This document shows positions 20,471 through 29,928 of a stretch of 32,434 nt of DNA, piece by piece. The notes under the pieces were generated by a model. It worked only from the letters and a program-made list of their open reading frames with translations. It did not search any database and was not told the DNA's origin. Position numbers and translations under genes: made by a program. Source of the DNA: an uncultured bacterium (GTDB lineage: Bacteria > Planctomycetota > UBA1135 > GCA-002686595); contig CALHGQ010000700.1 in the NCBI GenBank assembly GCA_938030175.1, forward strand, positions 1 through 32,434, written 5' to 3'. Within the stretch, counting starts at the first letter, position 1, and each line of letters starts with the position of its first letter.

Positions 20471-22348
20471 CTAGCGGCCCACGGGGAGGCTCGCTTCTAG
20501 CGCGGAGCCTATGACGTAGACCACGGCGTCGAAGCGGTTCCACGCGCCGTCTCCCGCATCGAGGTTTGCGTCCCGCAGATGGGACTCGGAGAAGGACTCA
20601 AGAAGGAGCGCGCGCCCGGCACCCTGGTAGGCCGATCGCAGCGCGACGCGGCCGACACCGTTGAGGGGCGTGTTCCCAAGCCGATAGATGCCTCCCTCCC
20701 GAAGCACGCCCGCGCGGAGCGCCCAGGAGTACTCGTCGACAAAGCGGTGGTACTGGGTGGCCCAACGCTTGTGGGTCAGGGTGCTGACGCCCGAGGCTTG
20801 GTCCATGTCGTAACCGAGGGGCTTCGCCATGAGCGTGGCGACGTTGCCCCGGGTGGGCGGGTAGCGCTGTTCGAGGTACGCAGCCTCCCACCACGCGCCG
20901 TCATCGCGCGTCACCCCTTTGTACGCGTGCGCCCAGCCCTCTTTGAACACGACGAGGCCGCTTTCGAGCGCCTCGGGCGTGAACCGGCTCCCATGGAACT
21001 CAGTGATGTTGCGCACCATGGAGCCTTGGCGATCGGCCATCCGGGTGGGGCGTCGCCGTGCGACGACGGACTCTTCCAGATTGATCAAGGCGTTCTCCAC
21101 GAAGCGGCGACTCATCCACGGGTGCTCCGCGGAGTCCGCGGCCCTTCGATTCAGAACGCCACGGAGGCGCGTCACTTCGGCGAGGACGTCTTCGTCCTGG
21201 GCCCCCGCCGGAAGCTCGCTCTGGAACTTGGCGTCCGCTGCGCGAAAGTACTCGCCGAGCGCGTCCTCGAGCGTTCGCCCATAGTCGAACTCGGCGTCGA
21301 GACAGCAGACGGCGATCGGCTTCGCACCTTGCTCGCGGTTCCAGACGCGAACCGAGTCGAGCAGGTCACGCGTGGACTGGGCCATCACCAGTGCGCGCAG
21401 CGATGAGTTCCAGAAGCGCTCGGCGTCGGCGTCCGAGCCGAGCGAAACGTAGCGCCTGAAGTGCGCCGTGTGGGAGTAGCTGTGCTCCAGAAAGAGCGTC
21501 GATACCCCGCGCTCCCGCATCAGCCACTCAAGCATGTCCTGGAAGAGCTGATTGACGCCTACGTTCCAATGCTCCTCCCCAAAGAAGAACACGCTCTCTT
21601 CACGGAGGAGTTCCGTGAGACGCTCTTGGAAACGCGCGCTCAAGGCGGGCTGCGGACCCGGGGCATAGACCGGCGACAGCTTCGCCGCTGCGGATAGGTC
21701 AGCGAGCCCGGCGAGCTCGACCTCCAGCTCATCCGGCGTGGGGAGGGCCGGAAGCGTTCGGGCCGGGGTGAGGCGAAGCTTGCCCCCGTGGTAGGCACCC
21801 TCGAACGCCACTCGGCCCTCAAACGTGACCGTCGCCGCGTGGCGTCCGGTGGGGACGCTCTTGATGTCCTTCAGGCCCTCCGGTGACAGGCCCCCAAGCC
21901 GAACCATGGATCCGTCCGCGCTGCGCACGTAGTAGCCCGTGCGACTGCGATCGAACGGGACGCCGCCGATCGAGACCCCGCCGTCCGCGTCACCAACGAT
22001 CGAACGGAACCACTCCGGATGTTGGAACGTACCGTGGACCCCGAGGAACACTGCGGGTCCAGAGGGGGCGGCTTCCAGCTCCGACTCGCGCGCCAGTCTT
22101 CCAACGTAGATCCCGTTCTCTTGGTAGTCGTCGAACGTGCTCTGGCTGTCCCCGTGGGTCGTCTCGCTTCCGGGCCCGTCGGCGAGTACCCAGGTCCATG
22201 GCGCTTCCTTCGCGCGCTGTTCGGTGAGTCGTGGTGGCGCGGGCTGGGTGCCCGAAAGCGTTTGGCCTTGGGCGAGTGCAACGAGACCGACTACGGGCAG
22301 CGCCCACACCCAGTGGAGCCGCTTGGTGGGCGAGAAGAGGTGGCTCAT
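20471..22348 (-). CDS. Secreted erythromycin-esterase/ChaN-like protein
   Basis: A 625-residue protein with a signal peptide or anchor (RLHWVWALPVVGLVALAQG, residues 10-28). The N-terminal half (about 45-230) contains beta-rich sequence, including AVFLGVHGTFQHPEWF, of no family I recognise. From about 240 to 620 it resembles the EreA/ChaN (Tiki-fold) superfamily: VFFFGEEHWNVGVNQLF with Glu258, Glu259 and His260, then a helix and VSTLFLEHSYS with Glu288-His289, and ALVMAQSTRDLLDSVRVWN further on. In that superfamily such Glu/His residues form the active site of esterases, haem-binding proteins or proteases. GGAG lies 4 nt before the ATG, which supports the start. The gene diverges from the histidine operon. 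Superfamily placement is moderate; substrate unknown. Confidence 0.55.
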   Translation of the reverse strand: MSHLFSPTKRLHWVWALPVVGLVALAQGQTLSGTQPAPPRLTEQRAKEAPWTWVLADGPGSETTHGDSQSTFDDYQENGIYVGRLARESELEAAPSGPAVFLGVHGTFQHPEWFRSIVGDADGGVSIGGVPFDRSRTGYYVRSADGSMVRLGGLSPEGLKDIKSVPTGRHAATVTFEGRVAFEGAYHGGKLRLTPARTLPALPTPDELEVELAGLADLSAAAKLSPVYAPGPQPALSARFQERLTELLREESVFFFGEEHWNVGVNQLFQDMLEWLMRERGVSTLFLEHSYSHTAHFRRYVSLGSDADAERFWNSSLRALVMAQSTRDLLDSVRVWNREQGAKPIAVCCLDAEFDYGRTLEDALGEYFRAADAKFQSELPAGAQDEDVLAEVTRLRGVLNRRAADSAEHPWMSRRFVENALINLEESVVARRRPTRMADRQGSMVRNITEFHGSRFTPEALESGLVVFKEGWAHAYKGVTRDDGAWWEAAYLEQRYPPTRGNVATLMAKPLGYDMDQASGVSTLTHKRWATQYHRFVDEYSWALRAGVLREGGIYRLGNTPLNGVGRVALRSAYQGAGRALLLESFSESHLRDANLDAGDGAWNRFDAVVYVIGSALEASLPVGR

Positions 22349-22500
22349 GGAGCTCCAAGGTAGCGCGACGCCGCGGATTCAGGGCTTCCCTGGAAAGGTG
22401 CGCAAGCCGACCCCGCGCCACCTTGCCACACAGCTTCCTGCCGAGATTCCAGATCCATGGGGTTGCGCTCTCTGCCCGATCGCCTACCCTCCCGTTCGCC
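22349..22500. other. Divergent upstream region of the histidine operon
   Basis: This 152-bp stretch separates the start of the esterase-like gene (minus) from the His-rich leader frame (plus). Apart from the weak promoter candidate listed separately and a small hairpin (CAGGG 22380-22384 with CCCTG 22388-22392), I see no feature. No alternative gene fits. Confidence 0.5.
22463..22490 (+). promoter_or_regulatory. Candidate promoter of the histidine operon
   Basis: TTGCGC (22463-22468) and TACCCT (22485-22490) are 16 bp apart and weakly resemble -35 and -10 boxes. Transcription would then start near 22497, leaving the leader peptide ATG at 22501 almost at the 5' end. The match is poor in the centre of both boxes; the position is plausible but unproven. 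Confidence 0.3.
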
Positions 22501-22566
22501 ATGTTCCGCGCCCTCGAGATCGCTTGTCTGCATCATCACCATGCTCCCCCAGGAGCCTGGTGCTGA
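22501..22566 (+). CDS. hisL: Histidine operon leader peptide
   Basis: A 21-codon frame, MFRALEIACLHHHHAPPGAWC followed by TGA (I write it as MFRALEIACL, then HHHH, then APPGAWC). Four consecutive histidine codons, CAT CAT CAC CAT, occupy 22531-22542, about 150 bp before hisG and followed by strong alternative hairpins. This is the layout of the enterobacterial his leader, where ribosomes stall on uncharged tRNA-His. Its job would be to couple histidyl-tRNA supply to transcription of the operon; the peptide itself would have no function. No Shine-Dalgarno sequence precedes the ATG. The name hisL is by analogy. It could be chance, but the coincidence of His run, position and hairpins argues otherwise. 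Confidence 0.75.
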   Translation: MFRALEIACLHHHHAPPGAWC

Positions 22567-22668
22567 ATCTGCGTACGTAAACAAGACGTTCCGAATCACA
22601 CGCCGGCTCCCCAGGGAGTCGGCGTGTTGTCATAGGTGACAGCTTCGCCGTTCGCTCCGGGAGCCGGC
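22543..22668 (+). promoter_or_regulatory. Attenuator-like set of competing hairpins before hisG
   Basis: One segment (strand 2, 22598-22611) can pair with three partners. With strand 1, inside the leader frame just past the His codons (22552-22560, one bulged T), it forms 8 bp at 22603-22610. With strand 3 (22615-22627) it forms a 13-bp stem from 22598 with one G-T pair and a CCAG loop. With strand 4 (22659-22668) it forms a perfect 10-bp helix at 22602-22611. The helices are mutually exclusive, as attenuation requires. A ribosome stalled on the His codons would cover strand 1 and favour 2:3 or 2:4. Neither hairpin has a proper T-run (TTGTCAT after 2:3, TTTCCCC after 2:4), so which is the terminator, or whether access to the hisG ribosome site (22676) is controlled instead, is unresolved. 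Confidence 0.6.
22598..22627 (+). terminator. Hairpin 2:3 of the his leader
   Basis: A 13-bp stem (22598-22610 with 22615-22627) closed by a 4-nt loop, 31 bp after the leader peptide stop and 62 bp before hisG. It is by far the strongest hairpin in the leader. The tail is TTGTCAT, weak for an intrinsic terminator, so it may be a terminator of low efficiency or the antiterminator form. Confidence 0.5.
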
Positions 22669-22689
22669 TTTCCCCAAGGAGAGCCCACC

Positions 22690-23619
22690 GTGAAAGCTAT
22701 GACCATCCCCACCGTCGAGAGATCCGACGGTGCCAACGCCCCCTCGACGCCCCTCAAGCTCGCGCTACCCAAAGGCCGGCTGCAGGACGGCGTTTTGCAA
22801 CTACTCGGCGACGCCGGCGTGAGCGTGACCCTGGGCGGCCGCGCCTATCGACCCACCGTCACCCTAGAGAACACAGAAGCCAAGCTTCTGAAGCCCCAAA
22901 ACGTCGTCGAGATGCTCAGCGTCGGCGCACGGGACGTCGGGTTTGCGGGCGCAGACTGGGCCCTGGAGAAGCGCGCTTCGCTCGTCGAGCTGCTAGACAC
23001 TCGCCTCAATCCGGTCCGGATCGTGGCCGCAGCCCCGCGGGAGCGATTGAACGCCGACGGGGGCCTGCCGACCCGCGGGCTCGGCGGGCGACGACTCGTG
23101 GTTGCGTCCGAGTACGCGCAGGTCGCCAAGGCGTGGATTGAGCGCTCCGGCCTCGACGCCACGGTGCTGCGCACCTACGGCGCCACCGAGGTCTTCCCGC
23201 CGGAGGACGCCGACCTCATCGTCGACAACACCTCGACTGGGTCGACGCTCCAGGCCAACGGTCTCGTGATCGTCGACGAGGTACTGCGCTCGTCCACGCG
23301 CCTCTTCGCGAGCGAGGCGGCGGCGTCCGACCCTGCGAAGCGAGCGCGACTGGACCAGCTCGTGATGCTCCTCGTCTCTGTTCTCGACGCACGCTCCCGG
23401 GTCATGCTCGAGCTCAACGTCTCGCCGAAGGACCTCGACCGACTCCTCGACGTGCTGCCGTGCATGCGTCAGCCAACGATCTCTCCCCTTCGCGGGGAAG
23501 GGGGCTTTGCGGTGCGCGCTGCGGTGCCCAAGGCGGATGTGGCCACCCTCGTGCCTCGGCTGAAGGAGCTCGGCGGAGCCGACATCTGCATCTCCACCGT
23601 GAGCCAGCTGGTGTCCTGA
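22690..23619 (+). CDS. hisG: ATP phosphoribosyltransferase, long form
   Basis: First enzyme of histidine synthesis: condenses ATP with PRPP to phosphoribosyl-ATP. About 309 residues. KLALPKGRLQDGVLQLL opens the domain that binds ATP, and DADLIVDNTSTGSTLQANGL is the PRPP-binding signature. The C-terminus (about 235-309: MLELNVSPKDLDRLLDVLP ... ADICISTVSQLV) is the ACT-like regulatory domain of the long, hexameric HisG, so no HisZ partner is needed and feedback inhibition by histidine is expected. The frame is open from an ATG at 22636, but I chose GTG 22690 because AAGGAG (22676-22681) lies 8 nt before it; an ATG at 22699 is the next option. The stop overlaps the hisC start by 1 nt (TGATG). 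Confidence 0.95.
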   Translation: MKAMTIPTVERSDGANAPSTPLKLALPKGRLQDGVLQLLGDAGVSVTLGGRAYRPTVTLENTEAKLLKPQNVVEMLSVGARDVGFAGADWALEKRASLVELLDTRLNPVRIVAAAPRERLNADGGLPTRGLGGRRLVVASEYAQVAKAWIERSGLDATVLRTYGATEVFPPEDADLIVDNTSTGSTLQANGLVIVDEVLRSSTRLFASEAAASDPAKRARLDQLVMLLVSVLDARSRVMLELNVSPKDLDRLLDVLPCMRQPTISPLRGEGGFAVRAAVPKADVATLVPRLKELGGADICISTVSQLVS

Positions 23620-25343
23620 TGCAGAGCACAAAGACCATCCGACCCGCGCTCGCGCCGCGTCCAGGACCTGCGCCGAACGCAGGTGTCCGCCGGGCCTACT
23701 CCACGGCCGCGCCGACCGCGCCCATCGACCTCTGGCTCGCGGGCAATGAGGGCCGCTTGCCGGAAGGCCTCACCGTTCCCGGTAGCGGTGAAGGACTCGA
23801 TCGCTATCCGAGCTCCGCGGAGCTTTCGCGCACGATTGCGGCCAGGCACGGCGTCGATCCGAGCCAAGTCCTCGTCACGGCCGGGGCTGACGATGCGCTG
23901 CTTCGGCTCGCCCTCGCCTACCTCGATCAAGGCCGCGAGATCGTGCTGCCATCGCCCACGTTCGTGATGATCGAGCGCTACGCGGAGCTCGCGGGGGGCA
24001 CGGTGGTGCGCGTCGACTGGCCCGCGGGAACGGGCTATCCCACGGAGGCTGTGGTGCGAGCCATCACCCCGCGCACCTCCCTCGTCGCGATGGTCAGTCC
24101 GAACAATCCCACCGGGGATGTCGCGTCCAAGAACGATCTTGATCAGGTGACTGCCGCGGCGCCCGGGGCCCTTATCGTCGTGGATGGCGCCTACGCCGAG
24201 TTCGCGGACGAGGACCTTACGGGGCCCGCGCTGGAGCACTCCAACGCCGTGGTTCTACGCACGCTCTCGAAGGCGTACGGCTGCGCGGGGCTCAGGGTGG
24301 GCTACGCCCTCGCTTCGGCGGGCGTCATTGCGGTGCTACGTGCCGCTGGGAATCCCTATCCCTGCGCGGGCCCGTCGCTAGCGGCGGCGTCGCTCAGGTT
24401 GGAAGGCGACATCGCTCCCTTCGTGGACGCGGTCCGCGCCGAGCGCGATGAGCTCGCCCTCGCCCTCGCGAGCGGTGGGCTCACGGCCTACCCCAGCCAA
24501 GGCAACTTTGTGTACGCCCAAGGAGAGCGGGCCGGCCTCGTCGCCACCCTGCTCACGGGGTTTGGTATCGCAGTACGGTTCTTTCCCAGCGAGGGGGACA
24601 CCGCCGCGCTTCGCGTGACGTGCCCCGGAGGGGCTCCGGAGCAAGCGCGTCTGCTGCACGCCCTCGCGGTTGTGCAGGCCCCCGAAGCGATTCTCTTCGA
24701 CATGGACGGCGTCCTAGCGGACGTCTCGCGGTCCTACCGCGCAGCGATCGTTCAAACCGCGGCGTCCTTCGGCGCGGCGGTGGACGGCGACGATATCGAA
24801 GCGCTTAAGGCCAAAGGAAACGCCAACGACGACTGGGCTTTGACCCAGCGACTGCTTCGCAGCGCTGGCGTTAACGTCTCCCTTCCAGAGGTGACGGAGC
24901 GCTTCGAGGCGCTCTACCAAGGCGTGGGCGACGAGCCCGGACTCAAGGAGACCGAGACGCTCCTTTTGCCGCGGGAGACCTTGGTGAAGCTCGCCGCGCG
25001 GTTTCGCCTCGGGGTCGTCACGGGGCGGCCGCGCAGCGACGCTCGCTTCTTCTTGGAGCGCCAGGGAATCGCCGATCTCTTCGACGTCGTGGTCACCCGG
25101 GAGGACGCGGCCCTCAAGCCGAGTCCCGAGCCGACGCGGTCCGCGCTGAAGGAGCTAGGGGTGCGTCGTGCTTGGCTCCTCGGGGACACCCTCGACGACA
25201 TCCAAAGCGCGAAGGCCGCCGGCGTCCTCGGCGTGGGCGTCCTCGCGCCCGGGGCAGCCAGCGGCGCTGCCCTGGGACTCCGCCGTGGTGGCGCCGCCAC
25301 CGTTCTCACCAACGTCTCAGACATCGTCGAGCTTCTCCCATGA
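23619..25343 (+). CDS. hisC: Histidinol-phosphate aminotransferase fused to a HAD phosphatase
   Basis: A 574-residue two-domain protein. Residues about 25-352 are a fold-type I PLP aminotransferase: [17 protein letters not shown] and TLSKAYG with the PLP lysine Lys218, then GLRVGYAL. This is HisC, which transaminates imidazole-acetol phosphate to histidinol phosphate. Residues about 355-574 are a HAD hydrolase with all four motifs: DMDGVLAD (Asp361, Asp363), VVTGRP (Thr468), Lys500 in LKPSPEP, and GDTLDDIQ (Asp523, Asp526, Asp527). No other histidinol-phosphatase is encoded in the operon and HisB lacks its phosphatase domain, so the HAD half probably removes phosphate from the product of the first half. 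The start at 23619 overlaps hisG by 1 nt; the longer frame from 23460 runs inside hisG. Overlaps hisB by 4 nt. Confidence 0.93.
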
Positions 25344-25942
25344 CCGCTTCCATCACAACCGGACGCCGCGCGGAGAAGTCGCGCGCAACGAAGGAGACGA
25401 CCGTCCGCGTCTCGCTGAACCTCGATGGCTCCGGCAAGTCCGCGGTGGCCACTGGCATCGGGTTCCTGGACCACATGCTGGATGCGCTGGCAAAGCACGC
25501 GCGTTTGGACCTGGAGCTAGAGTGCGAGGGCGATCTGCACGTGGACGATCACCACGTCGCTGAGGATTGCGCCCTTGTGCTCGGGGCCGCGGTCGATGAG
25601 GCACTCGGGGACCGCCGCGGCGTGACGCGATTCGGCAGCGCCTATGCGCCGTTGGACGAAGCCCTCGCCCGCGCCGTGGTGGATCTATCCGGACGGCCGT
25701 GGACCGAGTTCCACGTCCCCTTCCGGCGCGACTCCATCGGTGGGCTCGCGACCGAGAACATCGGTCACGTCTTCCGCTCTTTCGGGCTTGCCGCGCGCAT
25801 GTCGCTGCACGTGGACCTCATCCGCGGAGAGAACGATCACCACAAGGCCGAGGCAGCGTTCAAGGCGCTTGCCCTCGCACTCCGTCAAGCCGTCGCCCTG
25901 GATGGCACCCAGGACGTCCCCAGCACCAAGGGGAGCCTTTGA
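25340..25942 (+). CDS. hisB: Imidazoleglycerol-phosphate dehydratase (monofunctional)
   Basis: Two hundred residues. It removes water from imidazole-glycerol phosphate to give imidazole-acetol phosphate. The manganese-binding histidine/glutamate motifs are clear: [24 protein letters not shown] and [14 protein letters not shown]. There is no N-terminal phosphatase domain, unlike the enterobacterial fusion. The start ATG at 25340 overlaps the stop of the hisC-HAD gene (ATGA), and its own stop overlaps the hisH start by 1 nt (TGATG), implying coupled translation. The longer open frame from 25172 runs inside the HAD domain and is not coding. Confidence 0.95.
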
Positions 25943-26601
25943 TGAAGGTCTACCTCTTGAAGACGGGCGTCGCCAACGTGGCGTCGGTGACGGCCGCGTT
26001 CGAACGAGTCGGTGCGACGGTTCAGTTGACCGACGACCCGAGCGTTGTGCAGGGCGCCGGCGCGGTCGTTCTGCCCGGCGTCGGCTCCTTTGGTGCTGGC
26101 ATGGACGCACTGGACCGTAGCGGGCTCGGGGCGGCTCTCATTGGACGCATCGAGCGTGGCGCTCCCACCCTCGCGATCTGTCTCGGGCTCCAGCTCCTCG
26201 GCCGCGCCAGCGAGGAAGCTCCCGGCGTTCAGGGGCTGGGGGTTCTTCCTGCGGACTCTATTCGTCTCCCGAGGGCGCCGCGGCTGCCGCACTTCGGTTG
26301 GAACACGGTGACGTGGCAGTCCGGAGGCACGCAAGACGCAGCACCGCCTTCCGGCGAGGCGTACTTCGCGCACACCTACTGCCTGCGCGACGCGGGGACC
26401 CTGGAAGACGCGGGCTGGACGGTGGCCAAGACCACGGAAGGCTCAACCTTTGTGGCCGCCGTAGAGCGTGGCTCGGTGCTCGCGTGCCAGTTCCACCCCG
26501 AGCTCTCGGGTGCGCTGGGCGCGCGGACGCTCGCTCGCTGGCTTCAGCGAGCGGTGGCCCAAGGGGCTTCTGCCTCGTCGACGGGGGTCTCGCCATGGTG
26601 A
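25942..26601 (+). CDS. hisH: Imidazole glycerol phosphate synthase, glutaminase subunit
   Basis: A 219-residue class I glutamine amidotransferase that feeds ammonia to HisF. The catalytic triad is Cys80 (LAICLGLQLL), His185 and Glu187 (CQFHPE). PGVGSFGAGM (45-54) is the oxyanion-strand region. The N-terminal strand reads KTGVANVASV where relatives usually have DYGMGNLRSV, a mild departure. It starts on the hisB stop (TGATG) and its last codons overlap hisF by 7 nt if hisF uses ATG, or 4 nt if GTG. Confidence 0.93.
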   Translation: MKVYLLKTGVANVASVTAAFERVGATVQLTDDPSVVQGAGAVVLPGVGSFGAGMDALDRSGLGAALIGRIERGAPTLAICLGLQLLGRASEEAPGVQGLGVLPADSIRLPRAPRLPHFGWNTVTWQSGGTQDAAPPSGEAYFAHTYCLRDAGTLEDAGWTVAKTTEGSTFVAAVERGSVLACQFHPELSGALGARTLARWLQRAVAQGASASSTGVSPW

Positions 26602-27362
26602 AGCGACGCATCATTCCCTGCCTTGACGTCCGGGACGGGCGCGTCGTGAAAGGCGTGCGCTTCCAGGGGCTCGTGGACTCCGGTGATCCGGTGGAGCGTG
26701 CGGCGGCCTACGAGGCGCAGGGCGCCGACGAGCTGTGCATTCTCGACGTGTCCGCGACACCGGAAGGGCGGTCGAACGCGGCGGCTACCGTGGTGGCCGT
26801 GCGCGCGATCCTCGGGATCCCGCTCACGGTAGGCGGCGGAGTGCGCACGGTGCAGGACGCCGCGCGCCTGCTGGAGGCCGGAGCGGACAAGGTGGCGGTG
26901 AACACGGCGGCCCTTGCGCGACCTGAGCTCCTGGCGGAGATCCGCGCCTCCCTTGGGGCTCAGTGCACGGTCCTTGCGTTGGACGCGGGGCGTCGTCTCG
27001 ATGGGCCGAGCCGCTTTGAGGTCATCACCCACAGCGGCAAGGTGCGCACGGGCCTCGATGCCATCGAATGGGCGCGTCGTGCGGCGGAGCTCGGTGCCGG
27101 TGAGATCCTCGCGACGAGCTGGGATCGCGACGGCACGGGCGATGGGTATGACCTCGAGCTCCTGGCAGCGCTGCGCGCCGCCGTGGGGGTGCCGATCGTG
27201 GCGAGCGGCGGCGCCTCCCACGCTGAACACATGTCGGCCGCGCTCCACGCGGGCGCGGATGCCGTCCTCGCCGCGTCCATCTTCCACCGGGGCGACTTCA
27301 CCGTCGCCGACCTCAAACGAACTCTTCTCGCCGACGGCCACAGCCTACGAAACAACCCATGA
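26595..27362 (+). CDS. hisF: Imidazole glycerol phosphate synthase, cyclase subunit
   Basis: A 255-residue (beta/alpha)8 barrel that makes imidazole-glycerol phosphate and AICAR from PRFAR and ammonia. Signature parts: MVKRRIIPCLDVRDGRVVKG with the catalytic Asp11, LTVGGGVRTVQDA (phosphate-binding), ALDA at the second catalytic Asp, ATSWDRDGTGDGYD and VASGGA. Two starts are possible: ATG 26595 or GTG 26598, the latter giving a GTGA overlap with hisH like the other junctions. The stop overlaps the hisA-hisI-hisE start (ATGA, 27359-27362). Confidence 0.95.
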   Translation: MVKRRIIPCLDVRDGRVVKGVRFQGLVDSGDPVERAAAYEAQGADELCILDVSATPEGRSNAAATVVAVRAILGIPLTVGGGVRTVQDAARLLEAGADKVAVNTAALARPELLAEIRASLGAQCTVLALDAGRRLDGPSRFEVITHSGKVRTGLDAIEWARRAAELGAGEILATSWDRDGTGDGYDLELLAALRAAVGVPIVASGGASHAEHMSAALHAGADAVLAASIFHRGDFTVADLKRTLLADGHSLRNNP

Positions 27363-28651
27363 TAGTCCCCAGCATCGATCTCCAAGGCGGCACGACCGTG
27401 CAGCTGGTTGGAGGTGAAGAACAGGCCCTCGACGCGGGCGATCCGCGCCCGCTTCTTGAGAGGTTCCGTCGGGTCGGCGAGACCGCCGTCATCGACTTGG
27501 ATGCCGCCAAGGGCAATCCACAGACGGCGCAGCGCCAGCACAACCAAGCGCTCATCGAGGAGCTTTGCGGACGCGCGCCCGTTCGCGTCGGCGGGGGCAT
27601 TCGCACGGAGGAGAGTGCGCGCCGCTGGTTGGACGCCGGCGCTGAGAAGATCATCCTAGGAACGGCTGCCACGCCGGAGCTGTGCTCGAAGCTCCCGAAA
27701 GCGCGACTCATCGCGGCCCTCGACGCCCGCAACGGCGAAGTGGTTGTGGAGGGGTGGCGGCGCGCCACCGGGCGCCGCATCGAAGAGTCGATGGCGGAAC
27801 TCCGCGATCACGTCGGCGGATTCCTCGTCACGTTCGTCGAGCGGGAGGGTCGTCTAGGGGGGACCCAGCTCGACCGAGTGCGTGCCCTCGTCGAGCTGGC
27901 GGGGGACGCACGCGTCACCGTGGCAGGCGGCGTGACGACTTCCGAAGAGGTCGCGGCGCTCGATGGGATGGGGGCCGATGCCCAGGTGGGCATGGCGCTC
28001 TACACGGGGGCGCTTACCCTCGGGGACGGCTTTGCCGCGCCGCTGCGTTCTGATCGAGCGGACGGGTTGATCGCGACCGTCGTCGTCAACGAGTCGGGAA
28101 GAACGCTTGGGCTGTGCTGGTCGAGTCGACGCAGCCTTGGCTACGCCATCGAGCACGGCGTTGGCGCCTACGAGTCCCGCAAGCGAGGGCTCTGGATCAA
28201 AGGGCAGACGTCGGGGGCGACCCAGGAGCTCCTCTCCATCGGCGTCGACTGCGATCGCGATGCTCTGCGGTTCACGGTCCGGCAGAAGCGTGGAACAGGG
28301 TTCTGTCACCTCGGGACCGACAGCTGCTGGGGCCGCGCGTCGGGTCTCTCCAAGCTCGAGGCTACCCTTTGGGATCGCCGCGCATCGGCGCCGGCGGACT
28401 CCTACGCTGGCCGCCTCTTCCGAGACGCGGGCCTCCTGCGCGCGAAGCTCACGGAGGAGGCGGGGGAGCTCGGGGAAGCGTTGGGACGTCAGGAGGTGGT
28501 TCACGAAGCAGCCGACGTGATCTTCTTTGCGATGACGGCGATGGCACGCGCGGGCGTGTCCCTGGCGGACGTGGAAGCGGAGCTCGACTTGCGCGCCCGG
28601 AGAGTCACGCGTCGTCCTGGCAACGCGAAGCCAAAGGCGGTGTTGCGATGA
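27359..28651 (+). CDS. hisAIE: HisA-HisI-HisE trifunctional fusion
   Basis: A 430-residue fusion of three steps. Residues 1-228 are HisA, the ProFAR isomerase barrel, with Asp7 (PSIDLQGG) and Asp122 (AALDARNGEVVVEGW) as catalytic pair and GGGIRTEES as phosphate loop. Residues about 231-325 are HisI, the phosphoribosyl-AMP cyclohydrolase: SRKRGLWIKGQTSG, Asp297-Asp299-Asp301, and Cys298, Cys316, Cys323 for zinc. Residues about 345-430 are HisE, the phosphoribosyl-ATP pyrophosphatase: Glu366, Glu367, Glu370, then Glu383 and Asp386. The HisI-HisE half has LGLCWSS, GFCHL and VTRRPGNAKPK, which I recall from fungal His4 and not from the usual bacterial HisIE. All active-site residues are present. 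The ATGA overlap with hisD (28648-28651) keeps the order I-E-D, as in His4. No linker looks degraded. The symbol is descriptive. Confidence 0.9.
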   Translation: MIVPSIDLQGGTTVQLVGGEEQALDAGDPRPLLERFRRVGETAVIDLDAAKGNPQTAQRQHNQALIEELCGRAPVRVGGGIRTEESARRWLDAGAEKIILGTAATPELCSKLPKARLIAALDARNGEVVVEGWRRATGRRIEESMAELRDHVGGFLVTFVEREGRLGGTQLDRVRALVELAGDARVTVAGGVTTSEEVAALDGMGADAQVGMALYTGALTLGDGFAAPLRSDRADGLIATVVVNESGRTLGLCWSSRRSLGYAIEHGVGAYESRKRGLWIKGQTSGATQELLSIGVDCDRDALRFTVRQKRGTGFCHLGTDSCWGRASGLSKLEATLWDRRASAPADSYAGRLFRDAGLLRAKLTEEAGELGEALGRQEVVHEAADVIFFAMTAMARAGVSLADVEAELDLRARRVTRRPGNAKPKAVLR

Positions 28652-29928
28652 GTTCTTCCGTTACGGGTCGCACGCCGCTTCTTCCGCGCATCTCGCTCGA
28701 CAGGGTGTCGGCCTCTGCGCCGACGCCCATCGATGCGGAGACGATGACGAAGGCCCGCGGCATCGTCGAATCCGTTCGCACCGGCGGGGAAGCTGCGCTG
28801 GTGTCGCTCGCCCAGGAGCTGGATGGACGCACGCAGGGTGAGGCGCTCTTCCTGGGTAAGGAGGACCTTGCGCAGGCGGCGGCCGACGTGCCAGCGGAGA
28901 CCCTCGCGCTCTTTCGACGCACAGCCGATCGTATTCGGCGCTTTGCCGCCGCCCAGCGGAGCACCCTCACGGCCCTCGACGCCGAGGTCCCCGGAGGGCG
29001 TGCGGGGCACGACATCGCCCCGGTCACCTCGGCCGGGTGCTACGCTCCCGGGGGACGCTACCCGCTTCCCTCGTCGGTTCTCATGACGGCCGTGACGGCC
29101 CGCGCCGCGGGCGTCGAGCGGGTGGTGGTCGCTTCGCCGAATCCAGCGCCGATCATGCTCGCGGCGGCGCACGTCGCCGGAGCCGATGGGTTCCTCGCCT
29201 GCGGCGGCGCCCAGGCTATCGCGGCGATGGCGTACGGCGTGCCGGGCCGACTGGACCCGGTGGCGATGGTGGTGGGGCCCGGGAACCGCTGGGTGACCGC
29301 GGCCAAGCAGCTCGTGTTCGGCGCGGTGGGCATCGACCTGCCCGCGGGCCCTTCGGAACTCGTGGTGCTCGCGGACGAGACAGCCAATCCCGACCTCGTG
29401 GCCGCCGATCTTCTGGCCCAGGCCGAGCACGACCCCGACGCCCGACCTCTCTTGATCGCCACCGACGAGGGGCTCATCGCCCGGGTTCAAGAGCGGCTCG
29501 CGATTCGCTTGGCTGATCTCTCCACCCGCGGCGTAGCCGAGGCTGCGCTCGCCCATGGGTTCGCGGCGTGGGCGCCTTCGCTCGACGAGGCGCTCTCTGC
29601 CGTGGACGAACTGGCCCCAGAGCACCTTCAGCTCTGCGTTGCGGACCCGGAAGGGGCGAAGGCCAAGCTCCAACACTTCGGTGCTGCCTTCCTCGGGGAG
29701 CGCTCGGCGGAGGTGTTCGGGGACTACGGTATCGGGCCGAACCACGTGCTCCCCACGGGTGGCGCAGCGCGCTATTCCGGGGGGCTGTCGGTCTTCACCT
29801 TCCTGCGTATTCGAACTTGGCTGGACCTGGAGGATCCGGGCGAAGCGTGTCGCGATGCGCGCGACCTGGCGCAGCTCGAGCAACTGTCTGGGCACGCGTT
29901 GGCGGCGACGGCCCGCTTACCCCAGTAG
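28648..29928 (+). CDS. hisD: Histidinol dehydrogenase
   Basis: A 426-residue NAD-dependent zinc enzyme that oxidises histidinol twice to histidine, the last step. Signatures: [70 protein letters not shown] (zinc Gln and His), ELAPEHLQL (catalytic Glu-His), [20 protein letters not shown] and [12 protein letters not shown] (zinc His). Complete. The start at 28648 overlaps the previous gene by 4 nt. The longer open frame from 28114 runs inside the hisA-hisI-hisE gene. The last 12 bp overlap the 3' end of the convergent GNAT gene, with no room for a terminator between them. Confidence 0.95.

Follow-up and report, generated by a model that had tools for sequence, protein, structure and literature searches.

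What a short stretch of DNA between position 22501 and the start of hisG at 22690 does for the histidine operon behind it is the question raised by this locus. The window (the whole stretch of DNA that was analysed, 32,434 nucleotides) is a single contig of a 7.2 Mb draft genome. By HisG, its closest named relative is Planctomycetes bacterium Poly30 (84% identity), which we take to be Saltatorellus ferox; the genus Saltatorellus belongs to the Planctomycetota, and the planctomycete host assumed in an earlier note on this DNA is supported. Judged from sequence comparison, the stretch is in all likelihood a ribosome-mediated transcription attenuator that senses histidyl-tRNA and controls the his operon.

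The operon and its probable leader peptide

Pfam domains bear out the his operon that the earlier note had placed behind a leader, and the genes make up a complete operon for histidine synthesis, all on the plus strand:

22690..23619, plus strand: hisG (long type); Pfam HisG and HisG_C, GTG start at 22690
23460..25343, plus strand: hisC-HAD hydrolase fusion; Aminotran_1_2 and HAD_2, longest ORF, true start probably downstream of hisG
25172..25942, plus strand: hisB, IGP dehydratase; IGPD, longest ORF, true start probably later
25699..26601, plus strand: hisH; GATase, longest ORF, true start probably near 25939
26298..27362, plus strand: hisF; His_biosynth, longest ORF, true start probably near 26595
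27359..28651, plus strand: hisA-hisI-hisE fusion; His_biosynth, PRA-CH and PRA-PH
28114..29928, plus strand: hisD; Histidinol_dh, longest ORF, true start probably near 28645

The HAD-type hydrolase fused to hisC is possibly the histidinol-phosphatase. Ahead of hisG the sequence does contain the 21-codon frame that had been described, running from an ATG at 22501 to a TGA at 22564-22566 and carrying four consecutive histidine codons:

22501..22566, plus strand: leader ORF hisL, encoding MFRALEIACLHHHHAPPGAWC and a stop; His-run ORF conserved in relatives
22531..22542, plus strand: regulatory codons CAT CAT CAC CAT (four histidines), read from the window sequence

The reading of this frame as a histidine leader peptide is strengthened by its recurrence. 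All eight genomes of the same genus have a His-rich ORF at the same position, and the cultured relative Poly30 (CP036434.1) shares the leader (loci L002 and L020). Among 56 Planctomycetota hisG loci of the window's type an upstream ORF with at least four histidines in six codons is present at 47 (at least three in six codons, 51/56), so that the search for a conserved His run ahead of related hisG genes, which the note had proposed, gave a positive answer. At the stricter threshold the controls yielded 0/56 on the antisense strand, 0.29% of shuffles and 2/30 hisG loci of the other type in the same phylum; on the antisense and shuffled counts, a chance origin was rejected. Histidine is well ahead of every other residue, the next being proline (10/56), and its codons vary across loci, with a CAT:CAC ratio of 190:138. 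The two exceptions with the other hisG type, L149 and L177, each have a His-run frame upstream and a terminator with a clean T-run, L149 with seven consecutive histidines; the element therefore occurs with more than one HisG type.

A run of histidines can bind metals, and one could imagine that the product is itself functional, for example as a His-rich metal-binding small protein beside an incidental hairpin. Such a role is scarcely credible, given that the ORF is tied to hisG, that the RNA strand near its end covaries with a strand outside it (strands 2 and 3, below), and that conservation of the peptide does not extend beyond the His run. The residues outside it instead appear to track the RNA, as in a recurrent RVG that corresponds to GGGTCGG of strand 2.

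Distribution

Among named genomes with this HisG, a strong His run is present in 16/18 Planctomycetota, in 1/18 Myxococcota and in 1/18 Pseudomonadota. On the HisG tree the label for the run is clustered (16 changes against 31.5 expected, with 0/500 shuffles as low); many forks of this tree are weak and its root is not known, and for these reasons a single origin of the element is not claimed. The run is missing upstream of same-type hisG in two loci of the window's family or order, L011 (G064) and L126 (G141), which are possible losses. The window's hisG type occurs in just 19/81 genomes of the family and a LeuA dimer domain in 1/58, which suggests either widespread amino acid auxotrophy or other enzymes missed by the profiles.

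His leaders also stand before same-type hisG in eight metagenome-assembled genomes (L049, L055, L064, L072, L077, L089, L091 and L092) titled Sumerlaeota, Acidobacteria, Deltaproteobacteria, Acidimicrobiia, Gemmatimonadetes and Proteobacteria. These may reflect a wider spread, gene transfer or mislabelled assemblies.

Competing strands in the leader RNA

Downstream of the His codons the RNA can be divided into strands that compete for partners:

22537..22547, plus strand: strand 1, overlapping the His codons; partner 22552-22562 (fold and pair counts)
22552..22562, plus strand: strand 2, partner of strand 1 or strand 3 (pair counts and swap test)
22598..22611, plus strand: strand 3, the switch strand common to the alternative pairings; 5' arm of the terminator (inverted repeat, swap test)
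22614..22627, plus strand: strand 4, 3' arm of the terminator (inverted repeat)
22659..22668, plus strand: strand 5, with complementarity to strand 3 and to the apex of the terminator (inverted repeat, swap tests)

Strands 3 and 4 form an inverted repeat of 14 nt (22598-22611 with 22614-22627) that is 93% complementary. The earlier note had claimed a hairpin and two mutually exclusive alternatives sharing the strand at 22598-22611, and these are present: strand 3 can pair upstream, as the antiterminator 2:3 (22552-22557 with 22605-22610, extended by 22559-22562 with 22601-22604), or downstream with strand 5, through a 10 nt inverted repeat (22602-22611 with 22659-22668) that is 100% complementary. 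The fold of the leader has a z of -4.6 against dinucleotide shuffles, with 0/200 equally stable.

Two other identities of these hairpins were rejected. A T-box riboswitch was discarded since an Rfam scan of the window gave no match at gathering threshold to a T-box model, nor to His_leader RF00514; and the hairpin cannot be the terminator of an upstream gene because the neighbour at 20471-22348 (minus strand) is divergent and points away.

Comparison among relatives indicates that the pairings are maintained. When 8 sequences of the family are aligned with MAFFT alone, 97.8% of the cells of helix 2:3 are paired, with two-sided compensatory changes at 3/6 pairs, against 23-60% when the partner is slid by one to three columns. 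Helix 3:4 is 77% paired (the row of L010 being misaligned there), helix 3:5 is 85% paired and helix 1:2, whose covariation is weaker than that of 2:3, is paired in 76.6% of cells. Base 22606, which is G or A, has a matching C/U in both strand 2 and strand 5, and strand 4 also offers a base that pairs with it. A swap test over 64 loci, in which each locus's own strands were set against those of other species after removal of row and column effects, gave z values that are not exact probabilities, the species being related: -5.9 for 2:3 (reversed-sequence control 0.2), -15 for 3:4 (reversed-sequence control -1.4) and -5.5 for 3:5, with the reversed controls of the three spanning 0.2 to -1.4. Strand 2 with strand 4 gave a null result in the same loci. 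Automatic hairpin picks were wrong or doubtful in L008, L012, L017, L018, L113, L132 and L169, of which the picks for L008 and L012 were mended while the remaining five loci were kept out of the swap tests. Compensatory change, the second check that had been proposed, is thus found in 2:3 by both approaches and in 3:4 by the swap test; with 2:3 and 3:4 covarying and the His run conserved, the architecture of ribosome-mediated attenuation that the earlier note recognised is supported.

The predicted terminator

What follows the hairpin bears on how transcription might end. The tail in the window is weak:

22627..22633, plus strand: weak terminator tail TTGTCAT, four T in seven bases

In relatives, a GC-rich hairpin after the His-run ORF is followed by a T-rich tail, with a mean of 6.1 T in the 12 nt around the hairpin end against 2.4 expected, a longest T run of at least four in 40/72 loci, and runs of up to 8 T. 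An intrinsic terminator hairpin with a U-rich tail before the first gene is thus found in relatives, whereas the TTGTCAT of the window is weak. Because the same hairpin has a T-rich tail across the phylum, the element is read from these sequences as an intrinsic-type terminator, of which the window carries a weak-tailed member. The earlier note was right that the window has no clean T-run; the Rho-linked or translational variant that it drew from this does not follow, since relatives do have clean T-runs. Attenuation by Rho, with termination set by how far the ribosome covers the leader RNA, would accommodate the weak T-run of the window, yet it would require neither a compensated hairpin with T-rich tails phylum-wide nor a conserved competing antiterminator. 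It is very improbable, and as the only mechanism it was rejected on these same observations.

Predicted promoter and start of the leader mRNA

The best sigma70-like promoter upstream of the leader is a consensus match with a spacer of 16 nt:

22463..22468, plus strand: -35-like hexamer TTGCGC; consensus match only
22485..22490, plus strand: -10-like hexamer TACCCT, whose end lies 10 nt upstream of the leader ATG; consensus match only

Of 77 loci, 70 have their best sigma70-like -10 placed so that it ends 4-13 nt ahead of the start codon of the leader, against 14/77 shuffled segments; L002 and L004 were scored as misses here owing to the choice of an inner ATG, and both have an upstream ATG about 10 nt past the -10. 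Were transcription to begin 6-8 nt past the -10, the 5' end of the leader mRNA would lie at or adjoining the AUG. Given this spacing, the leader mRNA appears, as a prediction from consensus matches, to be nearly leaderless across loci.

A model of transcription attenuation

Several features by which such an attenuator is recognised occur together: a His-run leader ORF before the operon, an antiterminator that excludes the terminator, and a protector hairpin, 1:2, in which the regulatory codons take part. The working of the preferred reading, transcription attenuation, would be as follows. Transcription would start at the AUG of the four-His leader peptide or a few bases before it. With ample charged His-tRNA, the ribosome would reach the stop codon and cover strand 2, hairpin 3:4 would form and the polymerase would halt before hisG. 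With charged His-tRNA scarce, the ribosome would stall on the His codons and cover strand 1, strands 2 and 3 would pair before strand 4 is made, and the polymerase would read through. If the leader carried no ribosome at all, 1:2 would form and so would the terminator. Strand 5, which matches the terminator apex and overlaps a hairpin at the Shine-Dalgarno sequence, may tie the state of strand 3 to the translation of hisG. The comparative basis comprises the His-run ORF, helices 3:4 and 2:3, the complementarity of strand 5 to the apex, the promoter spacing, the T-rich tails of relatives and the content of the operon; from it we infer stalling, termination, kinetic capture by 2:3 and any translational layer.

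Modelling of the window RNA is consistent with this scheme in part of its course. For RNA made as far as strand 3, a ribosome sitting on the His run gives 2:3 a predicted probability of 0.99, and the absence of a ribosome gives 1:2 one of 1.0. Once strand 4 is made, 3:4 wins at equilibrium with or without a stalled ribosome, and the switch in the window must therefore be kinetic. About two thirds of relatives likewise favour 3:4 over 2:3 at equilibrium despite a stalled ribosome. Averaged over 65 loci, 3:4 has a probability of 0.97 when the ribosome sits at the stop, and one of 0.66 when it is stalled. In the model, then, the effect of ribosome position on 3:4 has the right direction, and the window depends on kinetics.

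A possible second switch at the hisG ribosome binding site

Past the termination site, the leader contains two further features:

22666..22685, plus strand: hairpin 5:6 (GGCTTTCC CCAA GGAGAGCC), 22666-22673 with 22678-22685, burying the hisG Shine-Dalgarno
22676..22681, plus strand: hisG Shine-Dalgarno AAGGAG, by sequence and by spacing to the GTG at 22690

Strand 5 cannot affect termination itself because it lies past the termination site, and it is nonetheless conserved well beyond the window's family. In the swap test the post-terminator segment gave z = -8.1 with arm 3 plus loop and -10.9 with loop plus arm 4, against 1.1 and 0.7 when the hisG start was used in its stead. Strand 5 with strand 6 gave -5.1 (reversed control -1.8) with the segment cut at -10 to -14 and 0.6 with a cut at -22; hairpin 5:6 is supported by these comparisons, yet dependent on where the segment is cut.

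These results invite a mainly translational reading, in which the ribosome on the leader sets the hisG Shine-Dalgarno free (3:5) or leaves it buried (5:6) with little termination. The want of a clean T-run in the window tail would suit it, as would the pairing of 5:6, which covers AAGGAG at a probability of 0.97-0.99 unless 3:5 is enforced, and the swap tests, which favoured the match of strand 5 to the terminator apex (z -8 to -11) as well as hairpin 5:6 (z -5.1). Against it, a purely translational switch has no need of the T-rich tails that directly follow the hairpin in relatives, 5:6 persists in the 2:3 state, the one expected under starvation, so that the effect would have the wrong sign, and the support for 5:6 fades with other segment cuts. 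As the main mechanism it is improbable.

An extension of transcription attenuation, rather than an alternative to it, adds a second, translational switch worked by strand 5. The same observations speak for it, together with the conservation of strand 5 far beyond the family at a place past the termination site. The Shine-Dalgarno sequence, however, opens weakly in the 3:5 state (unpaired 0.22-0.24 versus 0.17), and strand 5 could merely stabilise the read-through RNA; two layers are thus conceivable, though the odds are against them. Somewhat more speculative still is the full proposal of a leaderless His attenuator throughout the Planctomycetota with this switch built in, strand 5 relaying the state of strand 3 to the hisG ribosome binding site and one stalled ribosome governing both termination and translation. 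Ribosome-mediated transcription attenuation works only with the ribosome closely behind RNA polymerase. If the proposal is true, the conservation of the device would imply coupling of transcription and translation at this locus, in a phylum for which a spatial separation of the two has been proposed.

Relation to known attenuators

The his attenuator of E. coli has a His-run leader ORF and alternative hairpins with a terminator, in front of an operon that starts with hisG. The window resembles this gammaproteobacterial system (hisL; RF00514) in its His-run leader ORF, its alternative hairpins ending in a terminator and its hisG-first operon; it differs in lacking an Rfam match, in its probably leaderless leader, in its weak tail, in the extra post-terminator strand complementary to the apex, and in its phylum and HisG type. 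Leader-peptide attenuation is known in Proteobacteria, Actinobacteria and Firmicutes (PMC2965389, PMC1262725, PMC9413887): described cases include attenuators for His in both Proteobacteria and Firmicutes and, in Actinobacteria, leader-peptide attenuators of other amino acids (PMC9413887, PMC2965389, PMC1262725). The His-leader RNAs of Firmicutes are those of the Bacillus cereus group, Peptostreptococcaceae and Erysipelotrichales (PMC9413887), and hisZ/hisS* leaders have also been described (PMC2965389); both share with the window leader peptides with runs of His codons, a terminator and an antiterminator, and both differ in phylum and operon order. Leaderless leader-peptide attenuators are known in trpL of Sinorhizobium meliloti (PMC7298713) and ilvBNC of Corynebacterium glutamicum (PMC11857589). 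In each, the mRNA starts at or adjoining the leader AUG and the ribosome controls a terminator; each differs from the window in amino acid and phylum, and leaderlessness in the window is a prediction.

Planctomycetota are absent from the main text of PMC9413887 and PMC2965389. Short leader genes of Planctomycetes were tallied in a survey of 2016, which proposed reinitiation in the passages concerned; these mention no his attenuator (PMC4833913). The earlier note knew of no description in this phylum, and a search of the open-access literature for an attenuator leader peptide in Planctomycetota found none. The locus very probably represents a real attenuator that includes a conserved extra strand and belongs to a phylum from which such a device is apparently undescribed; the novelty is one of host range, not of principle. 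The probable his attenuator recurs, across many families, in most of the examined Planctomycetota loci of this HisG type, and trp leaders accompany it in the window's own family. It would probably let the cell switch on its his pathway only at histidine shortage.

The trp leaders were read by eye: many trpE genes of the window's family have a WW, WWW or WWWW leader upstream, with a strong hairpin after it. Trp-run leaders (for example NWSWRWWPSGPGCSRGRRLTA and NWWWWCASEARRG) stand before trpE in L190, L191, L193, L194, L198, L201, L202, L206 and L209, several of them with T-rich tails. By their sequence these are probable trp attenuators in the same family, and leader-peptide attenuation therefore seems to be a general device in the window's group. 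Such a trpE leader is also present in the window's own genome (L202, G000:C387), where GCGGACCCGGAAG...CTTCCGGGTCCGC makes up the hairpin and TTCTTTATTTC comes after it.
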